This document shows positions 2,649 through 15,870 of a stretch of DNA of 64,000 bases, in pieces. Numbering within the stretch: the first letter of the stretch is position 1; every line of letters starts with the position of its first letter. The notes beneath the pieces are model-generated. The model was not told the DNA's origin. It made no database searches and saw only the letters and a program-made list of their open reading frames with translations. A program made the position numbers and the translations under genes. Location: NCBI RefSeq assembly GCF_040438645.1, contig NZ_CP159253.1, positions 310,001 to 374,000 of the forward strand, in the 5' to 3' direction. The stretch is from Mesorhizobium sp. WSM2240. GTDB taxonomy: Bacteria; Pseudomonadota; Alphaproteobacteria; Rhizobiales; Rhizobiaceae.

Positions 2649-4979
2649 CTAGTCGACTGCCATTGCCGCCGCCGCCAGTTTCTCGAGGTCGAGATACTGG
2701 GTCTCCTCGACCGTCACTCCGACGAACTTGATGGTGCCGCCCTTGAATTCGCCGGGCGACTTGTAGCCTTCGCTCACCGCGTCACCGCTATCGCGGCCGA
2801 TGCAAAGACCGTCGCCGGAGAGCGTGAACTTGCCCAGCTGGGTCTTCATGTCGCCTTGCGCAACGACCTCGTCGTTCACGTAAAGGGTCGTCTTTCCGTG
2901 AGACTCGCCGTACTTGCCCGTCTTTTCCCGGATGAATTCCATGCCGAGTGTGTACTTGCCGGGCTTGAGGTCTTTCGAGACGAAGGTCTGCTCGGGCTTG
3001 ATGCCGAGGAAGTTGTAAACGTAGTGCAGCTTCTTGTCCTTGATGAACAGCGAGTGTCCACCAAAGCGCGAGCCGTGGGCAAATATGACGCCTTCGCACT
3101 TGGGATCGGTGATCTCGACGTCGGCCAGGATCTTGTAGGACCGCCCGCGCACATTGACCGCGACGCCTTCCGGCACCGGGGACGTGCCTGGGTAGTAGAT
3201 GTAGCGATTCCTTGGCGCTTCCTCGCTGGGGCGTTCCACACCAAGCAGTTCGGCGGCGCTGCGATCGTCGAGCGGAAGCACCTTGTTGGTCTCGGCTTCC
3301 TCGAACCACGCCTTGATCAGGGCTTCGAGCTTGTCTGGGTGCTTGTCTGCAACGTTCGTCGCTTCGGAGCGATCCTTATCGACATGGTAGAGTTCCCATT
3401 TGTCTTTGTCGAAGTTGCCCTTGCTCGTCAGCGGGGCATGCAGGGCAGCCGCCTTCCAGCCGTTCTCCCACATTCCGCGCGTACCCAGCATCGCGTAGTA
3501 CTGGCGCTTCTTCTTCGTCTTGGCGTCGGGCGTGGCGTCGAAGGTATAGCGCATCGACACACCGGATAGCGGGTATTGCTCGACGCCGCGATAGGTCTTC
3601 GGCATCTCCACGCCGCAAACGTCGAGGATCGTCGGAACGATGTCGGTGCAGTGGTGGTACTGGTTCCGTACTTCGCCCTTGGCCTTGATGCCCTTGGGCC
3701 ACGAAATGACCAGCGGGCAACAAGTGCCGCCGGCATATTCGGAATACCGCTTGAACATCTGGTAGGGCGTGGAGAAGGCGACGGCCCAGCCGGTCGGATA
3801 GTGGTTGTATGTCTCGGGACCGCCGAGCACCTCGAGATACTTCATGTTCTCCGACAGCTCGTCGGGATAGTTGTTGAAGAACTTGTTTTCGTTGACCGAA
3901 CCGTTCGGGCTGCCCTCGCCCGAAGCGCCGTTGTCGGAGCAGTAGAACACGATCGTGTTTTCGAGCTGTCCACTCTGCTCCAGATAGTCGATGAGCCTGC
4001 CGATCTGCACGTCGGTATATTCGGAGAATCCGGCATAGACTTCGGCCATGCGGGCGAACAGTCTCTTCTCGTCCGCGCTCAGGGAGTCCCAGGGCCTGAC
4101 GGCGTCGCCGGGGTTGGAGACATTATCAGGAACAGGATTGATTGGGGTAAGCTTGGTATCCTTTGGAAGAAGGCCCTTCTCAATCATGCGCGGCAGGACC
4201 CACTCGCGATACGCCTCGTAGCCGTCGTCGAACTTGCCTTTGTATTTGTCTATATACTCCTTCGGCGCATGGTGCGGCGCGTGGTTGGCGCCAGGGCACA
4301 GCCACATGAACCAGGGTTTGGACGGATTGCTGGCCTTCTGATCCCGGATCATCTGCAGCGCCTGGTCGACGAGATCCTTCGACAGGTGATAGCCGTCCTC
4401 CGGGCCATAGGGCTGGTCGATGAACTTGTTGTCGTCGACTAGGTCCGGATACCACTGGTTCGTCTCGCCGCCGATGAAGCCGTAATAGCGATCGAAACCC
4501 TTTTGCAGCGGCCATTCGGAACGATTCCCGCCCGCGCAGATGTCCTGTTCAGGGACGTTGTGTTGCTTCCCGAGCCAGTAGGTGCTCCAGCCAGACTCCT
4601 GCAGCACCTGACCGATCGTTGCGCATTCCGCGGGTGTGCGCCCACTCCACCCCGGAAACCCCTGAGCTCCTTCGGTGATGCACGACATGCCATTGAGGTG
4701 GTGATTGCGCCCGGTTAGAAAAGTGGAACGCGTGGGCGAGCACAACGCCGTCGTATGCCACTGCGAATAGGTCAGGCCGTTTTCGGCAAGCTTCTCCAGG
4801 GTCGGCATGTTGATTGCGCCACCGTAGGGCGCCCAGGCCGCCTGGCCGGTGTCGTCGTAAAGGATAATCAGGACATTTGGGGCTCCCTTAGGTGCACGAG
4901 GCGGGAGGTACGGTTCCCAGTCCGGCTTGGAATCTCTGACGTCGAGCTTGATAACGCCTTTGAATGGTTTCTTCGACAT
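2649..4979 (-). CDS. Arylsulfatase, type I (formylglycine-dependent)
   Basis: This 776-residue sulfatase is the first gene of a minus-strand operon. Cys80 in CSPTR is the formylglycine position and Asp42-Asp43 are metal ligands. A second metal-binding segment is CSDNGASGEGSP. The C-terminal domain again ends in a beta-rich tail. It is clearly homologous to its downstream neighbour, but the region after the first aspartates differs (DDTGQAAWAPYGG), so the pair may differ in substrate. The start is supported by GGAGCTAAATC just before ATG. The 5' region up to 5290 carries a 16-bp regulatory element shared with the two-component genes, suggesting control by the adjacent regulator. No signal peptide is seen. 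Confidence 0.92.
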   Translation of the reverse strand: MSKKPFKGVIKLDVRDSKPDWEPYLPPRAPKGAPNVLIILYDDTGQAAWAPYGGAINMPTLEKLAENGLTYSQWHTTALCSPTRSTFLTGRNHHLNGMSCITEGAQGFPGWSGRTPAECATIGQVLQESGWSTYWLGKQHNVPEQDICAGGNRSEWPLQKGFDRYYGFIGGETNQWYPDLVDDNKFIDQPYGPEDGYHLSKDLVDQALQMIRDQKASNPSKPWFMWLCPGANHAPHHAPKEYIDKYKGKFDDGYEAYREWVLPRMIEKGLLPKDTKLTPINPVPDNVSNPGDAVRPWDSLSADEKRLFARMAEVYAGFSEYTDVQIGRLIDYLEQSGQLENTIVFYCSDNGASGEGSPNGSVNENKFFNNYPDELSENMKYLEVLGGPETYNHYPTGWAVAFSTPYQMFKRYSEYAGGTCCPLVISWPKGIKAKGEVRNQYHHCTDIVPTILDVCGVEMPKTYRGVEQYPLSGVSMRYTFDATPDAKTKKKRQYYAMLGTRGMWENGWKAAALHAPLTSKGNFDKDKWELYHVDKDRSEATNVADKHPDKLEALIKAWFEEAETNKVLPLDDRSAAELLGVERPSEEAPRNRYIYYPGTSPVPEGVAVNVRGRSYKILADVEITDPKCEGVIFAHGSRFGGHSLFIKDKKLHYVYNFLGIKPEQTFVSKDLKPGKYTLGMEFIREKTGKYGESHGKTTLYVNDEVVAQGDMKTQLGKFTLSGDGLCIGRDSGDAVSEGYKSPGEFKGGTIKFVGVTVEETQYLDLEKLAAAAMAVD

Positions 4980-5638
4980 GATTTAGCTCCGTTGTTCGCC
5001 GCTGTTCATTTAGGGACGTAAGAGACGCCGGACTTTGCCGAAGCGATCGCGATCCTGCTGTTTCCTTCCCCTCGGCGCTCGACCTCGAATGGATCGTCAC
5101 CGATCCGTCGCTGTTCGTCTGATGTCGTCCTTCGATTTGATCGAGAAGAAGGGGTGGCCGTTATCGAGCCTGGCCGCATTGGTGGCATTATTGGCCGCCA
5201 CCGACCGGAGCAGCCTGGCAGACATAGGACCGAGCCTCCCACGAGCAAATCGCCGTCGTGATTCTCGCGAAACATCGCGGCGGCGCTAGTTGGACCAAAG
5301 GGCAAGTTTGACGGTGCGTCCGACAAAGCTGATGCCGTGCGACTTGTTTGCTGTGCAAGGGAACCGGAAAGAGCCGACCGTGTTTGGCACGACGTGACAA
5401 ATCGGCTGCCTGATCGGGTCTAATCAAACTTAGTGGGTGGTCACGTTTGATTTTGCCGGCACTTCCGCAAGCGGAAAACGAGACGTCGGTACAATCACGG
5501 GGTGAGTTGTTCGGGTTGCTCTTCTCAATCGCCAATGTAAGAATGACGATTGGCGGAGGGATGACACGGCTATGCTTGCATGCGGCTGCAAGGATTCGGC
5601 ACGATTCTCCCAATAGTGGTTGTGGCCACGGCGATCGT
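4980..5638. promoter_or_regulatory. Divergent intergenic region between sulfatase operon and sensor kinase
   Basis: About 600 bp separates the sulfatase start (4979, minus strand) from the kinase gene. It contains the first copy of the module's 16-bp element at 5290-5305 and, near its right end, the signal-peptide coding stretch at 5580-5670 that is out of frame with the kinase body. Apart from that I see no convincing gene: the open frames are short and unlike protein. It presumably holds the divergent promoters for the sulfatase operon and the sensor gene. Confidence 0.6.
5290..5305 (+). promoter_or_regulatory. Module element copy 1 (TTGGACCAAAGGGCAA)
   Basis: The sequence TTGGACCAAAGGGCAA differs at one base from copies at 8882 and 13291. 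The half-sites TTGGACC and GG(G/T)(G/C)CAA form an imperfect palindrome, typical of a dimeric helix-turn-helix regulator. It is 310 bp upstream of the first sulfatase and about 275 bp upstream of the kinase signal-peptide ATG. Confidence 0.7.
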
Positions 5639-5670
5639 ATGCGTTTTCTCAGCCCTACTGCTCCCCCCGG
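5580..5670 (+). other. Out-of-frame signal peptide of the sensor kinase (frame break at a C6 run)
   Basis: From ATG 5580 a frame encodes a textbook signal peptide/membrane anchor: charged start (MRLQGFG), then ILPIVVVATAIVCVFSALLL. It is in a different frame from the kinase body. Shifting back one base in the C6 run at 5662-5667 joins it to SNALAQQ-ATKSVLVLSS, giving a normal cleavage region and the start of the periplasmic domain. The run reads C-CCC-CCG in the upstream frame, the form of a -1 slippery heptamer. Either a base is missing (mutation or sequencing error) or frameshifting occurs. Confidence 0.6.
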
Positions 5671-8263
5671 GACAACGGGGGTTCAGTCAAATGCACTCGC
5701 ACAGCAAGCGACCAAGAGCGTGCTCGTCCTGTCGTCGAGCCACAGCGCTCTTCCCGCCGGCATAGAGATCACGAAAGGTATTCTCACAGCACTTCCAGCG
5801 GATGTGGGCCTCTATAACGAGTATCTCGATTCCGAAAGATTCTCTGGGATAGAGCATCTGGAGAACATGCGCCGGTTCATCGGCGAGAAGTACGCGGACA
5901 AGCCGATCAAGGTCGTTATGGCTCTTGGTCCGCAGGCGCTGGAATTCATGCGCGAGTACGGCGACGAGATCTTTCCCAGTGTCCCGGTTGTCTATTCGGG
6001 AGTCCGCAAAGAGCGTATCCACGACAATCCGCCACCGCCGAACTACGTCGGTATCGAAAGCCGGTTTGACCTGGCGGCGACGGTGGAACTGGCATTAGCT
6101 CTTCAAGCGGAAGCGAAGGAACTGGTTGTCGTCACTGGCGCCGCCGAGTTCGACAAAGCGTGGGAGGCGACAGCCAAAGCAGAACTTGGAACCTTCGCGA
6201 GCAGGCTGAAATTGCGCTACCTGTCTGGGCTGGCGATGGATGACCTGCTCACTACGGTGGCACAATTGCCGACAGATTCCATTGTTCTCTATCTGACCGT
6301 CTACCAGGACGGGTCGGGACGCCGTTTCATCCCGCGCGATGTCGCTGCGCGCCTGTCCCAGGCAGCCGGCGCGCCTGTCTACAGCGTTTACGATACCTAT
6401 CTCGGCCTAGGCATCGTCGGCGGCTATATGGACACGTTCGAAGCAGTGGGCGTCCAAGCGGGCAGCATCGCGCGCCGGATCCTTGAAGGCGAAAATCCGG
6501 CCGAGATGACCATCGATCCAAATGCCGGGCACTCGTACAGGATCGACTGGCGGCAACTGCAGCGCTGGGGCCTTGACCAGGCAAATCTACCGGCAGACGC
6601 GGAAATCCGATATCGGCCGCCGTCGTTGTGGGAGCAGTATCGCGAACTGGTGCTGGCGGCGGTGATTGTTTTCGCGCTTCAGTCCATGCTGATCACCGCC
6701 TTGTTGATCGAGCGGCACCGCCGGCGCCGAGCGGAGGGAAGTTTGCGTGAAGGTGAGGAGCGCATTGCACTTGCTGCCCAGTCAGCCAATCTTGGCCTCT
6801 GGCAATGGGACCTCGTGCGAGACCGCCTCTGGGTCACCGATCTTTGCCGAGCACTGCTCGGTATTGCGCCGGATACGGCTCTTTCGATGAGCTCTTTGCT
6901 TGACGTGGTCTCTCGAGAGGATCGAAAAGGGCTTCGGAAAACGATCGAGAAGCTCAGATCGACTGACAAAATGTACGAGTCCGAGTTCCGCATCACCTTG
7001 CCGGATGGCGAGATCCGGTGGATCGGAGTCACTGGCCGCTCAACGTTCGACGCCCGCGGCAAAGCGTTGCGCATGACAGGCGTCTTGACCGACTTGACCG
7101 AGCGCAAGCGGATTGTGGAGAAGCTGCGGGAAAGCGAGGAGAGATATCGAAATGTCGTGGAGACGCAGACCGAGCTCATCTGCCGGTATCTGCCCGACAC
7201 CACGTTGACATTCGTCAACGATACCTATTGCCGCTATTTCGGGAAGAGCCGTGAAGAACTCATTGGCAATAGGTTCATCGAATTTGTTCCGGAGTCGGCG
7301 CGGCTCGCTGCGCTCCGGTATGTCGAGTCCATTGGGAGCAAGGCGCCCATCGAAACGTACGAGCACGAAGTGCTGCGCCCGGACGGCAGCGTTGGCTGGC
7401 AGCAATGGGTCGACCGTGCAATTTTCGATTCGACCGGAAAGACCGTCGAGATCCAGGGTATCGGGCGCGACGTCACCGAACTTAAGAATGCCGAGAGCGA
7501 GGCACAGCAACGTCGCGAGGAGGTGATGCATCTCACTCGTGTGGCTGTCCTCGGCGAGCTTTCGGGTGCGCTGGCACACGAGTTGAACCAGCCGTTGGCC
7601 GCCATTCTCAGCGACGCGCAGGCCGCGAGGCGTATGATAAGCGGGCATGCACTGGACCTCGGCAACCTGACGGAAATTCTGGATGACATCGTCGCCGACG
7701 ACAACCGTGCCGGGGCCGTCATCAAGCGCCTGAGGGCGCTCCTGAAAAGAGGGGATCAGCAGTCGGCGCCCCACGACATCAATGAAATCGTCACGGATGT
7801 GCTTCAGTTTGCAAACCCGGAACTGGTCGCGCGGCGTGTCGCCGTGCAAACCGATTTCGCGCCTTCGTTGCCGAGCATCCTGGGGGACCGCGTCCAACTC
7901 CAGCAAGTGCTCCTCAACCTGATCCTCAATGGCTGCGAGGCCATGTTCAGTCTTGAGGCGGCTGCACGGCGCTTGAAGATCACGACGTCCAGCAATGGCA
8001 ACGGTCTCGTCGAGGCGAGGGTGTCGGACCACGGCACGGGCATAGAGCCTTCGACGCTGGAACGGATTTTCGAGCCGTTCGTAACGACGAAGAAGAGCGG
8101 CCTTGGCCTGGGACTATCGATATGCCGGTCCATCATCACTTCGCATGGCGGTCTCATATGGGCGCAAAACAATCCGGATCGGGGCGCAACCCTCGGTTTC
8201 GCGATTCCGGGAACAGTGGGAGAAAGCATTGCCGATCGACGCTCCGGTAGTCTTCGTCGTTGA
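5639..8263 (+). CDS. Membrane hybrid sensor histidine kinase with periplasmic-binding-protein-like sensor and PAS domains
   Basis: From the in-frame ATG at 5639 the protein has 874 residues; the frame is open further upstream to 5447, but that part looks non-coding. Domains in order: an extracytoplasmic ABC-substrate-binding-like region (about 5700-6620), one membrane helix (LVLAAVIVFALQSMLITALL, about 6650-6710), two PAS domains (about 6740-7110 and 7130-7490), a HisKA domain with phospho-accepting His in ALAHELNQPL (codon 7577-7579), and a HATPase domain with N box (LNLILNGCEAM), DHGTGI and GLGLGLSI motifs. The first in-frame methionines give no signal peptide, while one is encoded in another frame at 5580. 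The gene overlaps the following response regulator by 35 bp, so the two form a cognate pair. Confidence 0.85.
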   Translation: MRFLSPTAPPGTTGVQSNALAQQATKSVLVLSSSHSALPAGIEITKGILTALPADVGLYNEYLDSERFSGIEHLENMRRFIGEKYADKPIKVVMALGPQALEFMREYGDEIFPSVPVVYSGVRKERIHDNPPPPNYVGIESRFDLAATVELALALQAEAKELVVVTGAAEFDKAWEATAKAELGTFASRLKLRYLSGLAMDDLLTTVAQLPTDSIVLYLTVYQDGSGRRFIPRDVAARLSQAAGAPVYSVYDTYLGLGIVGGYMDTFEAVGVQAGSIARRILEGENPAEMTIDPNAGHSYRIDWRQLQRWGLDQANLPADAEIRYRPPSLWEQYRELVLAAVIVFALQSMLITALLIERHRRRRAEGSLREGEERIALAAQSANLGLWQWDLVRDRLWVTDLCRALLGIAPDTALSMSSLLDVVSREDRKGLRKTIEKLRSTDKMYESEFRITLPDGEIRWIGVTGRSTFDARGKALRMTGVLTDLTERKRIVEKLRESEERYRNVVETQTELICRYLPDTTLTFVNDTYCRYFGKSREELIGNRFIEFVPESARLAALRYVESIGSKAPIETYEHEVLRPDGSVGWQQWVDRAIFDSTGKTVEIQGIGRDVTELKNAESEAQQRREEVMHLTRVAVLGELSGALAHELNQPLAAILSDAQAARRMISGHALDLGNLTEILDDIVADDNRAGAVIKRLRALLKRGDQQSAPHDINEIVTDVLQFANPELVARRVAVQTDFAPSLPSILGDRVQLQQVLLNLILNGCEAMFSLEAAARRLKITTSSNGNGLVEARVSDHGTGIEPSTLERIFEPFVTTKKSGLGLGLSICRSIITSHGGLIWAQNNPDRGATLGFAIPGTVGESIADRRSGSLRR

Positions 8264-8879
8264 CGATGACGCGGCCATACTGCGGGCCTTGACGCGGCTT
8301 ATCGCGGCGAACGGGCTCGAAGCTCGACCATTCTCATCGCCGGCGGCGTTTCTCGACACGCACGACGCACAGCAACCCGGCTGCGCGATAATCGACATCG
8401 CGATGCCAGGTTTGAACGGCCTCGAATTGCAGGAGAGGATGGTCGAGCAAGGGTCACATCGACCAATAATTTTTCTCACCGGGTATGGGGATGTCCCGAC
8501 GAGCGTGCAAGCGATGAAGGCCGGAGCGGTGGATTTTCTGATGAAGCCCGTCGATGAGGAGGCTCTGCTGTCGGCAATCGCCGTCGCGATTGAGGAGGAT
8601 GCAGCGGCACGGGAGGACCAGGCCGAGCTCGAGCCCCTCCAGCGGCGCTACGCCGGCCTCACTTTACGCGAATGCCAGGTCTTTGCCCATGTGGTGTCGG
8701 GTCGGCTCAACAAGCAGATCGCTGGCGATCTTGGCATCGTCGAAAAAACGGTCAAAGTGCATAGGGCCCACGTGATGGAAAAAATGGGAGCGGGGTCGCT
8801 GGCCGAACTCGTTCGGATCGCAGAGCGTCTAGGGCTCGATCGACTGCCCGGACGTTATTCCGCGGAAAAAGTCGATTAA
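8229..8879 (+). CDS. Two-component response regulator, FixJ/NodW (LuxR) type
   Basis: The protein has an N-terminal receiver domain and a C-terminal LuxR-type helix-turn-helix. I place the start at TTG 8229 because GGGAGA lies 6 bp upstream and the receiver begins immediately afterwards; this gives 216 residues. Earlier in-frame starts lie deep inside the kinase gene. Asp12-Asp13 and phospho-acceptor Asp56 (IIDIAMPG), the Thr in FLTGYGD and Lys in FLMKPVD complete the receiver active site. The DNA-binding part reads LTLRECQVFAHVV...NKQIAGDLGIVEKTVKVHRAHVMEKM. It overlaps the kinase gene and is the best candidate to bind the 16-bp palindromic element repeated in this region. Confidence 0.9.
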   Translation: MPIDAPVVFVVDDDAAILRALTRLIAANGLEARPFSSPAAFLDTHDAQQPGCAIIDIAMPGLNGLELQERMVEQGSHRPIIFLTGYGDVPTSVQAMKAGAVDFLMKPVDEEALLSAIAVAIEEDAAAREDQAELEPLQRRYAGLTLRECQVFAHVVSGRLNKQIAGDLGIVEKTVKVHRAHVMEKMGAGSLAELVRIAERLGLDRLPGRYSAEKVD

Positions 8880-8881
8880 TG

Positions 8882-8897
8882 TTGGACCAAGGGGCAA
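8882..8897 (+). promoter_or_regulatory. Module element copy 2 (TTGGACCAAGGGGCAA)
   Basis: TTGGACCAAGGGGCAA starts two bases after the response-regulator stop codon and 54 bp before the next start. A possible -10 (GATAAAT, about 8922-8928) lies some 35 bp downstream of the element centre. That would put the element around -46, a usual position for a LuxR-type activator. The placement is inference. Confidence 0.72.
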
Positions 8898-8950
8898 CTA
8901 CGATTCCGTTTGTGGGACTGCGATAAATATTCAGCGCCTAGTTCTGGATC

Positions 8951-9340
8951 ATGGCAAACCCCACTTTGCGCATAGCCGTCGTCGACGACGACGCCTCCAT
9001 CCGAAGGGCGCTCGCGCGTCTGCTGGCCGCACTCGACTTCGAAGCCGCCACGTTTGCCACCGGAGCCGAGTTCCTCGACTCGCTGTCGGATAGGGTCCCG
9101 GATTGCCTGATGCTCGACCTGCATATGCCTAGCATGACGGGTCTCGAAGTTCAGGAGGCGCTTACTGAAGCGGGAATCGAGCTGCCAATCATCATTATTA
9201 CGGGGCACGACGAGCCGAAGGCGATCAGGCAGTCGCTGGAAGCGGGGGCAGCAGTCTGTCTGTCGAAGCCGCTCGACGACGAGCTCCTGCTCGAGACCAT
9301 CAACACCGCGGTTTACAGCACACCGAGATCATCAAAATAG
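8951..9340 (+). CDS. Stand-alone receiver-domain response regulator
   Basis: This 129-residue protein consists of a receiver domain only: Asp12-Asp13 (VVDDDASIRR), phospho-acceptor Asp56 (LMLDLHMPSM), the Thr in IIITGHD and Lys in CLSKPLDDE. It has no output domain. It lies downstream of the kinase-regulator pair with its own copy of the 16-bp element in the 71-bp gap. It may act as a phosphate sink or relay for the same kinase, or as feedback control, but the partner cannot be shown from sequence. No strong ribosome site is seen upstream; the ATG chosen is the one that starts directly before the first beta strand. Confidence 0.85.
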   Translation: MANPTLRIAVVDDDASIRRALARLLAALDFEAATFATGAEFLDSLSDRVPDCLMLDLHMPSMTGLEVQEALTEAGIELPIIIITGHDEPKAIRQSLEAGAAVCLSKPLDDELLLETINTAVYSTPRSSK

Positions 9341-9871
9341 TTGCGCATCCGCTCACGTCGATGCGAGCCGGTTGACCGCCTAGCAGAGATCGTGACGGGG
9401 CTGTTGCTCCCGCTCGAAACCGCCACAACGCTTGCGCGGGTGCGGATCGATGCGTCGCTGCCCGTTTTGGCTTGAGCGGCAATGTACATCGTTCAATCCG
9501 CGCGTGAGCGATGATGGCTGCGGCGTACGGAACACGATTATCAACTCACTTCTTCGCATGGACCAAGGTCCAACTGGCCCCGTCATCTGTCCGGCTACAG
9601 GATCGCCGAAGCAACGGCGGCGCTGGAGCGAATGGCGATCAGGTTCGACACAACTCTTCCTCTCCGCGACGCTCCGCCTCACGCGTCCCCGCCGCCTTGG
9701 ACGGACGGGCCTGCCCATCCCAAAGGAATCCGAATCTGAGACTTGAAGGATTGGTCCATATTTCAGAAATCGTCGGCGACTGGCTGAAAACTCGGGGCCG
9801 GCCATTTTTGAATAATCAGGCCGGTTACGAACAATGTGTACTGGCTAGGTAGGATGACAGGAGTTCGTCCG
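9341..9871. other. Intergenic region with one module element, no gene seen
   Basis: About 530 bp between the receiver gene and the MscS gene. Open frames are present on both strands but none has protein-like composition or a ribosome site. It contains the most symmetrical copy of the 16-bp element at 9558-9573. A half-site-like TTGGTCCA is found near 9751. It is probably a long regulated leader for the channel gene. Confidence 0.5.
9558..9573 (+). promoter_or_regulatory. Module element copy 3 (ATGGACCAAGGTCCAA)
   Basis: ATGGACCAAGGTCCAA is nearly a perfect palindrome (TGGACC-AA-GGTCCA) and shows the symmetry behind the less symmetrical copies. It lies 299 bp before the GTG start chosen for the MscS-family gene. 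Confidence 0.65.
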
Positions 9872-12016
9872 GTGAACAGGCCTGCAACAACGTCCGGTTT
9901 GAGATCGTGGTTTCTCCTAGCGGTGCTGTCCTTCATCGGTCTTGTCGCCATTTGCAATCCCTCAGCCGCGCAGACCACCCACCCGTCGGCGGAAGTGGCG
10001 CCGCCCGAGAAAGCGCAACAGCTCATCGAATTGCTCGACGATCCCGAGGTTCGGGCGTGGCTGGCGGGGGAAGCGCTGCCGTCCGACCCACCAGCGGCGG
10101 TGCAGATCGCCGGCTGGGAGCAAAGAATCCGCAATCATATCGGTGCTATGCGCAACGCGGTTTCGCACATTCCTGGCGAGATTGCGGAAGCCGCCCAGAT
10201 TGTGAGAGTCGAAATCAACAATCGGGGATTTGCCACGATATTTGTTCTGTTTGCCGCCGTGCTGGCTCTCGGTTTCGGCGCGGAATGGCTGTTCAGGCGG
10301 GCGATAAACGGAGCGCATCTGGCCGGCCGCGGACAGGCAGCCACTACGGGCTTGTCACCTGAAAGCAGCCGTGTCGACAAATCCCTTTCGGAGTTGGCCC
10401 CGCTCGCAGTGTTCTCCCTCGTCAGCGCCGGGGTCTTCCTGGCGTTCGAATGGCCCGACGTGCTGCGGCTGGTCATCCTGACCTATCTGGTTGCCTTCAT
10501 CATCGTACGACTGGTGATGGCCATGAGCAGGATTTTGCTAGCCCCAGATGGTGAGCATGTTTTAACAGGACCGGCAAAGCCGCGTCGGCTCATTCAGGCG
10601 AGCGACGCGGAAGCCAATTTCTGGTACCGGCGAGTGGCGATCTTCGCCAGCTATCTGATGGCCGGCTGGGCGACGGTCAGCCTGCTTCCGACGCTGGGGT
10701 TTTCGCCGGACGGAAGGCGCTTGGTCGCCTATCTGCTGGGTATCGGGCTTCTGGCCCTCGCCGTCGAGATGGTCTGGCGCCGCCCAGGCCGCGCGGCTAG
10801 GCAGCGCACAAGCGCAAAGGAATGGCTTCTTACCATTTACTTGGTCATTCTCTGGGGGCTCTGGGCCGCCGGCCTCAACGGTGTCTTGTGGCTCGGAATC
10901 TACGCCCTGCTGCTGCCAACAGCCTTGACGATAGCCGGTCAAGCGGCAGAGGCGTTCGCTGGGCGGCCAGACGAAGCCATCTCGGCGAATTCTGTTCGGA
11001 CCGTGATTATCGTCCGCGGTGCGCGTGCGCTGGTCATCCTGCTTGCGGTGCTGTGGCTTGGTATGATCTGGCGCCTGAACCCGGGCGCAATAGCGGAAGG
11101 AAACACGGTCTTGACCGAGATACTGCGCGGCCTGCTGCAGGGTGTGATCATCCTGCTCGTCGCCGATCTCGTCTGGCAACTGGCGAAAGCCTATATCGGC
11201 CGGAAGCTCGAAACGGCGACCGTGGATGGCTCAGTCAGCCCGGCTGAGGCGGCGCGCCGGGGCCGCTTGCGGACATTGCTGCCGATTTTCCGCAACATGC
11301 TCGGCGTCTTTATCGCGGCAGTGGCGATCCTCATGGTCCTTTCGGGATTGGGCGTGCAGATAGCTCCGCTGATCGCCGGCGCCGGCATATTCGGCGTGGC
11401 GATCGGCTTTGGCTCGCAGACCCTGGTCAAGGACGTGATCAGCGGCGTGTTCTACATGCTGGACGATGCGTTCCGCGTGGGCGAATACATCCAGAGCGGC
11501 AGCTACAAGGGAACCGTCGAATCGTTCAGCCTGCGCTCGGTCAAGCTGCGCCATCATCGCGGTCCGGTGTTCACTGTGCCGTTCGGCTCCTTGGGCGCGG
11601 TGCAGAACATGAGCCGGGACTGGGTGATCGACAAGTTCATGATCCGCGTGCCGTTCGATACCGATATCCAGCAGGTCAAGAAGTTGGTGAAAGGCATCGG
11701 CGCGGAACTGAAAGCCGACCCGGAACTGGCCCCGGAAATACTGGAAACCGTGAAGATGAAGGGTGTCGAGGAGATCGGCGATTTCGGCATCCAGCTGAGC
11801 TTCGCCTTCATGGCCAAGCCCGGGCACCAGTCGGTGGTGCGGCGTCGCGCTTACACGATGATCCGGCAGGCGTTCATAGAGAATGGTATCGAGTTCGCCC
11901 AGCCCACGGTTCAGGTGGGAGGTGACGAGAAGCAGGCGGCCGCTGCCGCCACCACGACCGCGATGATGCGCAAGAAGGCTGCCGAAGGCGGTGCAGGCCG
12001 AAAGGACGTAGCGTAA
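9872..12016 (+). CDS. Large MscS-family mechanosensitive channel
   Basis: I choose GTG 9872 (714 residues) because CAGGAG lies 8 bp upstream and translation then begins with a clean signal peptide ending in NPSAAQ; an ATG at 9836 is also in frame but poorly supported. A periplasmic N-terminal region is followed by several membrane helices. The MscS pore and upper beta domain follow: PLIAGAGIFGVAIGFGSQTL, then VKDVISGVFYMLDDAFRVGE and the conserved VPFGSLGAVQNMSRDW segment. The protein should release solutes when the membrane is stretched. Its length resembles extended MscS/YbdG-like channels rather than the minimal 280-residue form. An upstream module element suggests joint control with the sulfatases and two-component genes. 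Confidence 0.88.
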   Translation: MNRPATTSGLRSWFLLAVLSFIGLVAICNPSAAQTTHPSAEVAPPEKAQQLIELLDDPEVRAWLAGEALPSDPPAAVQIAGWEQRIRNHIGAMRNAVSHIPGEIAEAAQIVRVEINNRGFATIFVLFAAVLALGFGAEWLFRRAINGAHLAGRGQAATTGLSPESSRVDKSLSELAPLAVFSLVSAGVFLAFEWPDVLRLVILTYLVAFIIVRLVMAMSRILLAPDGEHVLTGPAKPRRLIQASDAEANFWYRRVAIFASYLMAGWATVSLLPTLGFSPDGRRLVAYLLGIGLLALAVEMVWRRPGRAARQRTSAKEWLLTIYLVILWGLWAAGLNGVLWLGIYALLLPTALTIAGQAAEAFAGRPDEAISANSVRTVIIVRGARALVILLAVLWLGMIWRLNPGAIAEGNTVLTEILRGLLQGVIILLVADLVWQLAKAYIGRKLETATVDGSVSPAEAARRGRLRTLLPIFRNMLGVFIAAVAILMVLSGLGVQIAPLIAGAGIFGVAIGFGSQTLVKDVISGVFYMLDDAFRVGEYIQSGSYKGTVESFSLRSVKLRHHRGPVFTVPFGSLGAVQNMSRDWVIDKFMIRVPFDTDIQQVKKLVKGIGAELKADPELAPEILETVKMKGVEEIGDFGIQLSFAFMAKPGHQSVVRRRAYTMIRQAFIENGIEFAQPTVQVGGDEKQAAAAATTTAMMRKKAAEGGAGRKDVA

Positions 12017-12105
12017 TTTGGGCGGAGAGTTCGATAAAGTTGTCGCGTCTGGGCGGCAATGCCGAATCGGTCCGGGCCCCCGGAATTCGTTAGGGCATAC
12101 GATTG

Positions 12106-12915
12106 TCAAAACCGCATGACCGCCCCGAAAAACCACCCATGCTGGACAATGTCGTAGACGAAGCCGTCATCTTGATAATCGACTCCGAGCGCGCGATAGC
12201 CTCCTACGGTCGCAATGCGGTCATTCCATTGATATCCGACGCCACCGAGAACATCCCATTCCAGATCCGCACTGGCGCCGAAACCGCCGATCATTCCCCA
12301 CGCCGTGAAATACCAGGGCGAATTGGTGTTGATGCGCGCCTTGGCCCCGATCATCGGATCGACCCACGTCGCACCGTCGCTGCCGCTAAAGGCAGCAATC
12401 TCCGGTCCGCCAGCCGCCAGCGCCGCCGATATCTCGTTGTCAACGCTCCAAATACGCGCGCCGGCCATCAGGTCGACAGTGGCATATTCTCTGGCGAAGG
12501 CCCGATATTCGCCCATCACAGTGGCCGTGAGGCTCTGTGTCTCCACTCTTGCGGACAGTGTGGCAGGTGCGCCGAGGACGGTTCGGGTAATGGATTGATC
12601 AGCCTCGGTCGACACGTAGATAAGATCGCCGAACAAACCCCAGGTTCCGTTGTGCAGTTCGCTCACCACCATGCCGCCGAAACGCAGATTGCTGAAAACG
12701 TCGCTGAAGCTCATATCGACGTCCACCGGCTGGCGTCCAAACAGGCCAACGTCGCCGTTCAGACCGGCTGCCCAAAGATAGGGGGCGATGCTGAATGTCC
12801 ATTCCTTCGCCTGGGGCGGCGGCGCCTCCTGTGGTAGATCAAGCGCGACATCAGCAGCGGATGCCGCCGAAGTCCATGCCAGGGCGGTGAGAAGGGTAAT
12901 CAGACTGCGGGTCAT
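12106..12915 (-). CDS. Outer-membrane beta-barrel protein
   Basis: I start at ATG 12915 because GGAGAAGCAATA precedes it; a start at 12936 is in frame but lacks this site. The 269-residue product begins with a signal peptide (MTRSLITLLTALAWTSAASA) and continues with alternating amphipathic strands. Tryptophan/tyrosine-rich segments such as WTFSIAPYLWAAGLNGDVG and the terminal AVMRF (C-terminal Phe) are typical of a small outer-membrane barrel. Proteins of this type are often annotated only as hypothetical outer-membrane protein. It is divergent from the DUF3300 gene and shares its intergenic region with two module elements. Its end is 90 bp from the end of the convergent MscS gene. Confidence 0.8.
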   Translation of the reverse strand: MTRSLITLLTALAWTSAASAADVALDLPQEAPPPQAKEWTFSIAPYLWAAGLNGDVGLFGRQPVDVDMSFSDVFSNLRFGGMVVSELHNGTWGLFGDLIYVSTEADQSITRTVLGAPATLSARVETQSLTATVMGEYRAFAREYATVDLMAGARIWSVDNEISAALAAGGPEIAAFSGSDGATWVDPMIGAKARINTNSPWYFTAWGMIGGFGASADLEWDVLGGVGYQWNDRIATVGGYRALGVDYQDDGFVYDIVQHGWFFGAVMRF

Positions 12916-13290
12916 TATTGCTTCTCCATTGCGCAATGTGTCTTATTTCTTTGGAAACAGGAAGCTGATGGAGGAACGGCCGAAGGCTTCCGGTCCGCCT
13001 TCCGGACTTTCGGCCCGTGGCGCAGGCCGACCTGCAGATTGATCGGCTGCTTGTCATGGTCACCAGCTTGCTGCCTTGAAATTGATCGGTGCTGACCAGG
13101 TTTCGTTCTCCCGGTCATGTGCCGATTCCATCTTGAGCGCAAAGATTGCCCTGCGTCATGCATTCCGACGCCTCGGCACCTTCAGATGTCTCGATAGTTT
13201 GCGTCTTTCCCCGGTGCGGCAGCGTGTTTTCCTCCCCTCCGGTGATAGGGAATGGGCCTAACTATCCGACGTAAGCCGACGCTAGGGAAG

Positions 13291-13306
13291 TTGGACCAAG
13301 GGGCAA
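13291..13306 (+). promoter_or_regulatory. Module element copy 4 (TTGGACCAAGGGGCAA)
   Basis: TTGGACCAAGGGGCAA, identical over all 16 bases to the copy at 8882. It lies 376 bp upstream of the barrel gene start and 164 bp upstream of the DUF3300 start. Confidence 0.72.
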
Positions 13307-13376
13307 TCCAACCGGATAGGCAATTGCCAATTTTCACAACGACAAGTCTCGCAATGGCTTTCATTTCCGGCTTGTG

Positions 13377-13392
13377 TTGCCCCAAGGTCCAA
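13377..13392 (-). promoter_or_regulatory. Module element copy 5, inverted (plus strand TTGCCCCAAGGTCCAA)
   Basis: On the minus strand it reads TTGGACCTTGGGGCAA, differing from copies 2 and 4 only in the two central bases. It lies 78 bp upstream of the DUF3300 start codon. Confidence 0.7.
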
Positions 13393-13469: not shown

Positions 13470-14852
13470 ATGGCAAGTTGGACTTCACTGCCCTTGGCTG
13501 CAGCAGTCGCCCTGGCCATGACGTTGGCGGGACCTCTCAATCATAGCGTTTTCGCTCAGGAGCAGACGGCGGCGGCCGACCCCGGCGCGCCGGCTGCGCA
13601 GGCGCCCGAACCGCTGAGCGCCGACGAACTGGAAGTGTTGGTGGCGCGCATCGCGCTCTATCCGGACGAGCTGGTCGCGCTGATATCGAGCGCCTCGCTC
13701 TACCCGCTGCAGATCGTCGAGGCGGCGCGGTTTCTCGACGACCACGCCAAGGATAATAGCCTGCAGCCGAAGGAGAGCTGGGACGGCAGCGTCATCTCGC
13801 TGCTCAACTATCCCGAGATCGTCAAGATGATGAGCGACGACCTCGACTGGACGCAGGCGCTCGCCGACGCGCTCGCATACCAGCAGAAGGATGTTCTCAT
13901 CGCCATCCAGCAGCTGCGTGAGGAGGCGGTGGCCAAAGGAATCATCAAGACCGACGACAAGGTCAAGGTGGAGAACTCGGGCGGCAACATCATCATCCAG
14001 CCGGCTAGTCCGGAGACAGTCTATGTGCCGCGCTACGAGCCGAGGATGCTCTACGAGCCGAACTACGTTGCGGCGCCGATTGCCTACTACCCCGACCCTT
14101 ACCCGACTTACTGGTACCCGACCGCCCCGTTCTTTGCCGCAGCGGTGACCGGCGCGATATGGGCGGCGGCGGTCGACTGGGACGACTGGGACGTGTGGGG
14201 CGGCCACTGGGACGGCAGCGACATCGATATCGACTGCAACGACTGCTTCAACGATCGCGATTTCGACGGCAAGATCAATTTCGACGACGTCGACTGGAAG
14301 AATGTCGACCGCTCGAAGCTCAACATCGACCGCGACCAGTTCGCCAAGTTCGATCGCACCGACATCAAGAACAAGCTCGAAGCCAACCGCACCAATTCCA
14401 TCCGCGACAGGGCGAAGCAGATCAACCGCGACCGTACCATCTCCAACAGGACCGCCAAGGCTCACGACATACGCAAGAGCACGTTGGAAGGCCTGCAGAA
14501 CAGGCCCGGCGGCGATCGGGCAAGGGCGGCCCGTCCGGACCGCCAGAGGCCGGCAGCACGCCCGGGCAGGGACCGGCGCGAGGCCTCGCGGCCGAACGTC
14601 CAGCGGCCAGCCACCGCCCATCGCCATGCCGGCAAGCCGAAGATGGCTCACAAGGTCGATCGCAGGCCGAAGCAGCACTCGGGGCTGGGTCATGTCGATC
14701 GCGGCAAGATATCGAAGGTGCATTCAAACCGTGGCCACAAGGCCATGGGGGGCGGTCACCGCGGTGGCGGAAGAGCTGTCCATCACGTCGGGGGCGGCGA
14801 ACGACATTTGCATCATGGCGGCGGACGTCGCGGCGGCGGCCGCAGGCGTTGA
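13470..14852 (+). CDS. Secreted DUF3300 protein
   Basis: The 460-residue protein starts with a Sec signal peptide and matches the DUF3300 core: LARIALYPDELV-like segment (ARIALYPDELVALISSAS), YPLQIVEAARFL, and the NYPEIVKMMSDDLDWTQALADA segment. After the core come an acidic low-complexity stretch (about residues 230-270, Asp/Trp rich), a basic Arg/Asn-rich region and a His/Gly/Arg-rich tail. The function of DUF3300 is unknown; it is commonly found next to DUF2950 genes, as here. The start ATG follows AGCGGAGGATC. A module element sits 78 bp upstream, and the DUF2950 gene follows after 22 bp, so they form a two-gene operon. Confidence 0.88.
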   Translation: MASWTSLPLAAAVALAMTLAGPLNHSVFAQEQTAAADPGAPAAQAPEPLSADELEVLVARIALYPDELVALISSASLYPLQIVEAARFLDDHAKDNSLQPKESWDGSVISLLNYPEIVKMMSDDLDWTQALADALAYQQKDVLIAIQQLREEAVAKGIIKTDDKVKVENSGGNIIIQPASPETVYVPRYEPRMLYEPNYVAAPIAYYPDPYPTYWYPTAPFFAAAVTGAIWAAAVDWDDWDVWGGHWDGSDIDIDCNDCFNDRDFDGKINFDDVDWKNVDRSKLNIDRDQFAKFDRTDIKNKLEANRTNSIRDRAKQINRDRTISNRTAKAHDIRKSTLEGLQNRPGGDRARAARPDRQRPAARPGRDRREASRPNVQRPATAHRHAGKPKMAHKVDRRPKQHSGLGHVDRGKISKVHSNRGHKAMGGGHRGGGRAVHHVGGGERHLHHGGGRRGGGRRR

Positions 14853-14874: not shown

Positions 14875-15870
14875 ATGGGCACGATCCTTCACAAGATGCT
14901 GCGTACGCTCCCGACAGCCGCTCTGGTGGCGGGACTTGCGGCAGGGCCGCCTGCACCATCGGCCGCCCAGGAACAACCGGCCCAAGCGGCGGCAGATGCG
15001 GAAACAGGGGCCGAAGACATCGGCATCTTCGCCTTCGAGTCCGAGGACGAGCCTCCGCTGTTCGACGATCCGGCTCCAGCGATTGATGCCTTCAAGAAAG
15101 CCTTGGCCGACAACGACTTCGACGGTTTGGCAAAGTTGCTCGGCCTCGATGCCGCCAGACTTAAGGGCGCGGAAGGTGTTATGGACACCTTTGAGCAGAT
15201 ACGCGAGGGCGCGGCCAGGCAACTGGTTGTCGCCGACATCGAGAACGGCAAGGCGTTGCAGATCGGCGACAAGCTGTGGCCGTTCCCGTTTCCGCTCCTG
15301 AAAGGCGAGGAAGACGGCAAATGGGCCTTCGACACGCGGGCAGGCCTTGAGGAGATCGTCAACCGGCGCGTCGGCGAGAACGAACTGGAGGCTATCGCCG
15401 CCATGCGCGCTTATGTCGAGGCGCAGAAGGACTATGCCGGACAGGACCGCGATGGTGACGGGGTCGAGGAATTCGCGCAGAAGCTGATCAGCACCGAAGG
15501 CACGGCCGACGGGCTCTACTGGCCGACTGATGACGTCAACGGCGAAAGTCCGGCGGGCGACCTCAGCCAGGCTGAGCTGGACGACGCCGCGCAGGGCGAC
15601 GGCTATTTTGGCTACCGCTTCAAGATCCTGGCCGGCCAGGGCGACCGGATCGCAGGCGGCGCCTACGACTACGTCATCAACGGCAACATGATCGGCGGCT
15701 TCGCACTGATCGCCTGGCCAGTCAAATATGCCGAGACCGGCGTGCACACTTTCGCTGTCAACCAGCACGGCATCATCTATGAAGCCGATCTAGGCCCCGC
15801 GACCGAGGCCATCGTCAGATACATAGATCGCTTTAATCCCGACGAGAGCTGGAGCGTTGCCGCCGACTGA
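14875..15870 (+). CDS. Secreted DUF2950 protein
   Basis: I start at ATG 14875, 7 bp after AGAGGAG, giving 331 residues with a signal peptide that ends near PSAAQ; the same frame is open further upstream inside the DUF3300 gene, but that part is not coding. The features of DUF2950 are visible: AAIDAFKKALADNDFDGLAKLLG-like N-terminal part, GLEEIVNRRVGENELEAI, YVEAQKDYAGQDRDGDGV, LYWPTDDVNGESPAG, and the C-terminal GGFALIAWPVKYAETGVHTF followed by NQHGIIYEADLG. Biochemical role unknown. It is the second gene after DUF3300 and likely works with it in the cell envelope. Confidence 0.88.
   Translation: MGTILHKMLRTLPTAALVAGLAAGPPAPSAAQEQPAQAAADAETGAEDIGIFAFESEDEPPLFDDPAPAIDAFKKALADNDFDGLAKLLGLDAARLKGAEGVMDTFEQIREGAARQLVVADIENGKALQIGDKLWPFPFPLLKGEEDGKWAFDTRAGLEEIVNRRVGENELEAIAAMRAYVEAQKDYAGQDRDGDGVEEFAQKLISTEGTADGLYWPTDDVNGESPAGDLSQAELDDAAQGDGYFGYRFKILAGQGDRIAGGAYDYVINGNMIGGFALIAWPVKYAETGVHTFAVNQHGIIYEADLGPATEAIVRYIDRFNPDESWSVAAD

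Follow-up and report, generated by a model that had tools for sequence, protein, structure and literature searches.

A conserved dyad in a Mesorhizobium sulfatase module as the probable operator of a FixJ-like regulator

A 64,000 bp stretch of the genome of Mesorhizobium sp. WSM2240 (contig NZ_CP159253.1, positions 310,001 to 374,000 of the forward strand; hereafter the window, whose own numbering is used) contains five copies of a 16 bp palindromic element within a module of sulfatase and two-component genes. Comparison with related genomes makes it very probable that the FixJ-like response regulator encoded at 8229–8879 uses this element as its operator, with signalling and targets as proposed below. 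In all 23 loci that carry the triad of sensor kinase, FixJ-like regulator and single-domain receiver, the window included, a matching dyad was present in the gap between the regulator and receiver genes.

The relatives were collected by searching 397 genomes of the order with a nine-kinase profile (A1), and the matches were sorted into three classes. Class A, a full-length kinase match at E ≤1.2e-228, comprised 9 genomes, seven of which were already in the profile; class B shared the sensor, with E values from 1e-128 to 1e-178 (14 loci, all examined); class C matched in the catalytic part only, and eight such loci with look-alike FixJ systems were chosen by us. Together with G267, G152, G703, G213 and ten genomes of the genus g143 (E ≤1e-200), every A match was taken into the A set, which thereby numbers 23 loci. 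Eleven A loci gave the consensus TTGGACC-NN-GGTCCAA (14 scored positions), and the dyad was then checked on a hold-out of the 12 A loci fetched afterwards; the rule for its spacing comes from all 23 together. Two genomes, G626 and G526, were first noticed through the motif, yet the kinase alone also finds both. The regulator is rare: at E ≤1e-60 it was found in 3 of 297 genomes of the family, its own included. A plasmid search with the kinase returned 353 records, none with 80% query cover, and the 30 plasmid matches listed start at residue 355 or later and thus lack the sensor. A contig scan gave five loci, two of them sensor relatives (L063, L064), without any site for the dyad in IUPAC code at ≤1 mismatch.

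The best gap match in the 130 bp leading up to the receiver ATG scored 10 in two loci, 11 in eleven, 12 in seven, 13 in two and 14 in one. Random 130 bp pieces of the same loci reached 10 in 4.0% of cases, and the pattern read backwards scored 9 at most. All 12 hold-out gaps scored at least 10 and 11 of them at least 11; a site of at least 12/14 anywhere in the locus was seen in 11 of the 12, the exception being L182. Sites of this quality numbered 17 in 196 kb of class A sequence (11 loci; backwards control, 1), 0 in 266 kb of class B and 0 in 152 kb of class C. At 11/14 or better, the counts were 30 for A (control 6), 5 for B (2) and 3 for C (1). The dyad centre lay 43–46 nt before the receiver ATG in 22 of the 23 loci (the ATG of L135 was picked by hand), despite a distance from the regulator stop that varied from −26 to 168 nt. 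The first-pass annotation of the window had named the FixJ/LuxR-type regulator as the natural candidate for binding the element, and it is still the best one, with its presence in 23/23 triad loci and no site of at least 12/14 in the eight look-alike FixJ loci. In the related genomes, whose scan had been proposed at that stage, the sites co-occur with the kinase and regulator in these 23 loci, and sulfatase and FGE genes are common neighbours. The relatives thus indicate, at the level of sequence, that the five elements are functional.

Within the window, a scan with TTGGACCAAGGGGCAA at ≤3 mismatches recovered the five copies exactly where they had been described (5290, 8882, 9558 and 13291 on the plus strand, 13377 on the minus strand) and, over the whole 64 kb, no further one; 100 shuffled windows gave a mean of 0.29 matches with a maximum of 2. 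The copies at 8882 and 13291 are alike at 16/16 bases, as had been reported, and both read TTGGACCAAGGGGCAA. The 5290 copy reads TTGGACCAAAGGGCAA, the 9558 copy ATGGACCAAGGTCCAA and the 13377 copy, on the minus strand, TTGGACCTTGGGGCAA. All five are intergenic within the module, 9558 overlapping only a mechanical open reading frame (ORF) without Pfam match. No random spread was seen over the 6.70 Mb genome (4 contigs), where matches with 0–1 mismatch were confined to the module and the strict dyad TTGSMCCWWGGKSCAA occurred in three places, all in the module (backwards control, 0). Relaxing the scan to ≤3 mismatches produced 28 strand matches genome-wide, five of them in the module; the other 23 equal the backwards control count (23). 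Nineteen of these 23 fall inside predicted ORFs, one has two mismatches and also lies inside an ORF, and homologs of the module genes were absent around all of them (3 kb loci, E 1e-6). In two genomes of the same genus, neither the regulator (at E 1e-60) nor the strict motif was found.

The dyad also follows the kinase between genomes. In g143, where all 166 genomes were scanned for the kinase, the perfect dyad was present in 8 of the 11 A-kinase genomes and in 6 of the 155 without it (Fisher 4e-8), a genome counting as kinase-free when none of its roughly five scored candidates matched at E 1e-200; the backwards pattern was present in 8/166. In three of the six exceptions the site precedes related genes, namely an FGE–sulfatase–HAD set in G767 and G851 and a sulfatase homolog in G860; nothing related was seen beside the site in G766, G768 and G812. 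Across the order, the strict motif was present in 4 of 9 A genomes and in 15 of 388 others (Fisher 4e-4). The perfect dyad at ≤1 mismatch occurred in 30 places in the 23 A genomes, compared with 8 for the backwards pattern. The site in G386 lies within genes read as an ABC transporter, with no target seen, and no target was seen for TTGGACCTAAGTCCAA in G526 and G703.

Alignment of 22 gaps on the dyad (L135 left out) revealed a −10-like box at positions 41–46, approximately 25 bp after the dyad, with T at position 46 in 17/22 gaps and A at position 41 in 15/22; no −35 was conserved. This spacing would place the dyad near −45 and the transcription start near the ATG in most relatives. In the window, GATAAAT at 8922–8928 (plus strand) sits at the conserved position with a score of 5.1, and the 13291 site has GATAGT on its barrel-gene side (13261–13266, minus strand; score 5.7). 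Taking the better of two directions, 14 of 42 sites score at least 3, for a one-direction chance of 6.1%; a −10 box common to every site was therefore rejected, the box being enriched and not general.

The two halves of the dyad are often unequal. Targets were given to 31 of the 42 sites; the remaining 11 are the receiver site of the window and ten whose target was not clear. The half-site on the gene side was better in 18, equal in 13 and worse in none, in an assignment that was not blind, since the gaps are mostly divergent and the sulfatase or barrel side was preferred over the kinase for nine sites. The dinucleotide [CT][TA] followed the gene-side half in 31/31 sites and the far-side half in 22/31. 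At six sites that by our reading leave no choice of target (window 9558, L032 9260, L165, L166, L213 and L214), the gene-side half was the better one in four and as good as the other in two. The window receiver site departs from this rule. By half-site order, the 5290 copy would point towards the sulfatases, 13291 towards the barrel gene and 13377 towards DUF3300. The reading of the element as a regulon operator was supported, with the 5290 copy assigned to the sulfatases and not the kinase. Autoregulation of the kinase from 5290 was considered and rejected because the better half faces the sulfatases; most gaps are divergent and this assignment is our own.

Several observations weigh against the operator hypothesis. 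The window gap dyad has its centre 61 nt from the ATG, outside the 43–46 nt range, and for the sites at 5290, 9558 and 13377 no sequence at the expected distance resembles a −10 box (best scores −0.4, −2.0 and 0.7). Five of the 23 A genomes have no perfect-dyad match at ≤1 mismatch; TTGSMCCNNGGKSCAA is missing from 5 of 11 A genomes (present in 6/11) and present in 3 of 14 others. The strict motif taken alone over the order was rejected as a marker, being near background (15/388 non-A genomes versus 11/397 for the backwards pattern). The eight C loci score 8–10 downstream of the regulator gene, two of them reaching 10/14, and no sulfatase homolog was seen in the stretch examined for three of the A loci: L033, which is a short contig, L191 and L192.

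Three other explanations were weighed. In the first, of small weight, the regulator acts as a repressor at the dyad, or the main effect of the receiver site is to hold down the receiver gene, the signal lifting repression. The position of the dyad alone is no proof of activation, and some window sites are without a −10-like box at the common spacing; a dyad about 45 bp before the predicted start, together with the absence of a conserved −35 in the 22 gaps, nevertheless fits activation better, and we regard repression as unlikely. It is also rather improbable that the dyad is bound by a different transcription factor from another locus, with the two-component genes as no more than some of its targets. 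The three g143 genomes with a site before FGE or sulfatase genes and no A kinase at E 1e-200 would agree with such a factor. The site nevertheless tracks the triad in 23/23 loci and the kinase in g143 (8/11 versus 6/155), and the regulator is the sole DNA-binding protein common to the compared loci, as judged by homology without every gene being classified. The helix-turn-helix (HTH) region argues in the same direction, since its differences accompany differences in the site. The 19 A regulators compared (of 23) carry K before a conserved T (EKT, LKT or VKT), nine C-locus regulators carry I or V, and two class B regulators of G129 carry R. Both regulator–receiver gaps of these G129 loci contain a putative variant, GATA-flanked dyad, GATATTG[CT]CC... 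(L138 6369, 9009 and 17446; L139 8445), at corresponding places in the two systems; in L138 it is also found between the kinase and the HAD gene and before a sulfatase. This agreement between HTH and site is a correlation from few cases.

The copies could finally be a mobile repeat, similar to repetitive extragenic palindromic (REP) sequences, or an RNA hairpin that multiplied inside the module, given the identity of two copies and the clustering of four within 4.5 kb. The flanks of the copies differ, no such copies exist elsewhere in the genome, and both dyad and spacing are kept where the regulators are only 41–60% identical to that of the window. The hold-out positions also contradict a spreading repeat, which we consider extremely improbable.

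The genes found near the kinase define what the operator would control. Neighbours were counted as homologs within the examined stretch (8.6–20 kb), and the counts follow the order A (of 23), B (of 14) and C (of 8). The most frequent were the sulfatases (20/2/0), the HAD hydrolase (15/1/0) and FGE (13/1/0), followed by DUF3300 (6/5/0), the barrel protein (5/2/0), DUF2950 (4/6/0) and MscS (1/0/0), which is linked in the window itself only. The neighbour queries came from A loci, so that seven loci, the window included, match their own sulfatases; the FGE and HAD genes of WSM2240 lie outside the window and are uncounted, and the sulfatase is backed by Pfam in nine A loci besides the window and by tblastn in the rest. 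Of the regulon put forward in the first-pass annotation, the sulfatases are steady neighbours in the relatives, and DUF3300, the barrel protein, DUF2950 and MscS are less constant. Judging from these neighbourhoods, type I sulfatases, FGE and HAD hydrolase most likely form the regulon core that relatives share. Two of the A loci without sulfatase carry DUF1254/DUF1214 genes (L033 5208–7597 and L192 13315–14742), and in G526 a multihaem cytochrome with TPR repeats (L091 14064–16016) adjoins the HAD gene of the module.

Sites were also found away from the kinase. G267 has four strict sites on other contigs, at genes for a sulfatase (L165), an autotransporter (L166), an outer-membrane efflux protein (L167) and a GntR regulator (L164); the mechanical ORFs of L165–L167 begin before or at the site, so the true starts matter there. 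Beside the efflux gene, a truncated copy of a receiver domain begins at the strict site (L167 9812–10390, contig C34). A perfect site in G756 is followed by a 44-residue C-terminal FGE remnant (L217 2825–2956, contig C7) and then by a sulfatase homolog, an arrangement that looks like a second FGE operon in decay. Six class B kinases (L141, L143, L145, L146, L147 and L149) have the same sensor type and lie near DUF3300 (5/14 B loci) or DUF2950 (6/14); within the stretch of these six loci, the site and any homolog of the window regulator are absent. By gene neighbourhood, the class B loci are an independent link of the sensor family to the DUF3300/DUF2950 pair.

In the window, the module begins with two sulfatase genes on the minus strand, A at 187–2553 (788 residues; PF00884, 3.1e-54) and B at 2649–4979 (776 residues; PF00884, 1.9e-61). 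Both are of type I (Cys) by their PF00884 scores (184.8 and 208.5 bits, cut-off 25) and by a CxPxR motif, CSPTR, the kind of motif modified by FGE, the sulfatase activator. Copy 1 of the element (5290–5305) separates sulfatase B from the kinase gene (5684–8263, plus strand, from the sensor domain on), which encodes a periplasmic binding-protein-like sensor, PAS domains, HisKA and HATPase. A hydrophobic, signal-peptide-like stretch precedes the sensor at 5560–5760 in another reading frame, so the kinase gene looks interrupted, through a real frameshift or an assembly error. The regulator gene, on the plus strand, encodes a receiver (PF00072) and a GerE domain (PF00196), with a regulator alignment (A2) as further evidence, and its product is the presumed dyad binder. 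Copy 2 (8882–8897) lies in the gap before the single-domain receiver (8951–9340, plus strand; PF00072), a protein without DNA-binding domain, and copy 3 (9558–9573) lies 5' of the MscS-type channel gene (9836–12016, plus strand; PF00924). The exported protein at 12106–12915 (minus strand) belongs to no Pfam family, its barrel fold being a reading of the first-pass annotation, and has homologs in four other A loci. Copies 4 (13291–13306) and 5 (13377–13392) lie between the barrel gene and DUF3300 (13470–14852, plus strand; PF11737, 9.8e-47), which is followed by the conserved part of DUF2950 (14902–15870, plus strand; PF11453, 1.3e-92). The 13 kb gene set described initially was recovered, and the module extends past the left edge of the window, just outside which lie SBF transporter, FGE (PF03781, 285.8 bits for a cut-off of 23.3; 4.6e-85) and HAD genes.

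The signal had been thought to come from the envelope, an idea weakened by the resemblance of the sensor to PF04392-type (ABC_sub_bind) binding proteins. Against this profile (cut-off 25.9 bits), the sensors of L068 and L090 scored 28.8 and 28.0, those of the window and L099 16.1 and 15.9, and L032 and L104 gave no match. Modelled with AlphaFold from a 33-row alignment (predicted local distance difference test 92.3, predicted template modelling score 0.85), the window sensor was closest to 3lft, 6hni, 6hnj and 3lkv, with template modelling scores of 0.57–0.66 and 13–16% identity for the best matches, and the profile search retrieved the same binding proteins. These are free proteins, 3lft being with L-Trp by its title, whereas the window sensor is part of a kinase. 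Such a fold makes a small ligand likelier than general envelope stress; that it is aromatic is a guess.

The arrangement recalls the oxygen-sensing FixL–FixJ system, in which a PAS kinase and a FixJ-family regulator are likewise followed by a single-domain receiver with a regulated promoter; here, the sensor has a periplasmic binding-protein fold and the neighbours are sulfatases. The regulator scores 201.3 bits against FixJ (NF006900, cut-off 255), although receiver and GerE are present, and the kinase 250 bits against FixL (NF041777, cut-off 850). In the FixL–FixJ system of some Alphaproteobacteria, the receiver FixT gives feedback. The tetrathionate system TtrS–TtrR shares the FixJ-family regulator, TtrR being the second NCBIfam match of the window regulator, and TtrS too has a periplasmic sensor; the scores stay below the cut-offs (TtrR, NF040749, 164.3 bits versus 290; TtrS, NF040750, 117 versus 750) and the neighbour genes differ. 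Bacterial sulfatases are known to be controlled by sulfur supply. Type I sulfatases are regulated in both cases, here probably through a two-component system with its own operator.

We propose the following model. A small molecule would bind the periplasmic binding-protein domain of the kinase, which would phosphorylate the FixJ-like regulator. A regulator dimer would then bind the dyad, ideally TTGGACC-NN-GGTCCAA with one half often degenerate, and activate promoters with a −10-like box about 25 bp beyond it. In the window, 5290 is predicted to serve the sulfatase pair, 8882 the receiver, 9558 MscS, 13291 the barrel gene and 13377 DUF3300/DUF2950. The receiver, itself a target, would probably feed back by taking phosphate from the kinase.

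It is possible, though we hold this tentatively, that the system is dedicated to sensing sulfate esters, perhaps aryl sulfates or other aromatics, with a binding-protein sensor on a PAS kinase, a directional operator and a self-limiting receiver, and that it switches on sulfatases, FGE, HAD and DUF3300/DUF2950. If this is true, DUF3300 and DUF2950 would help the cell to use sulfated compounds at its surface. What was a bare repeat becomes a candidate regulon in which operator, regulator, kinase and gene set are named and directly testable. The model predicts a feedback receiver whose promoter has the most constant site of the regulon. It would tie a FixJ-like subfamily to sulfatases and sulfatase maturation, and would give DUF3300/DUF2950 a physiological context.

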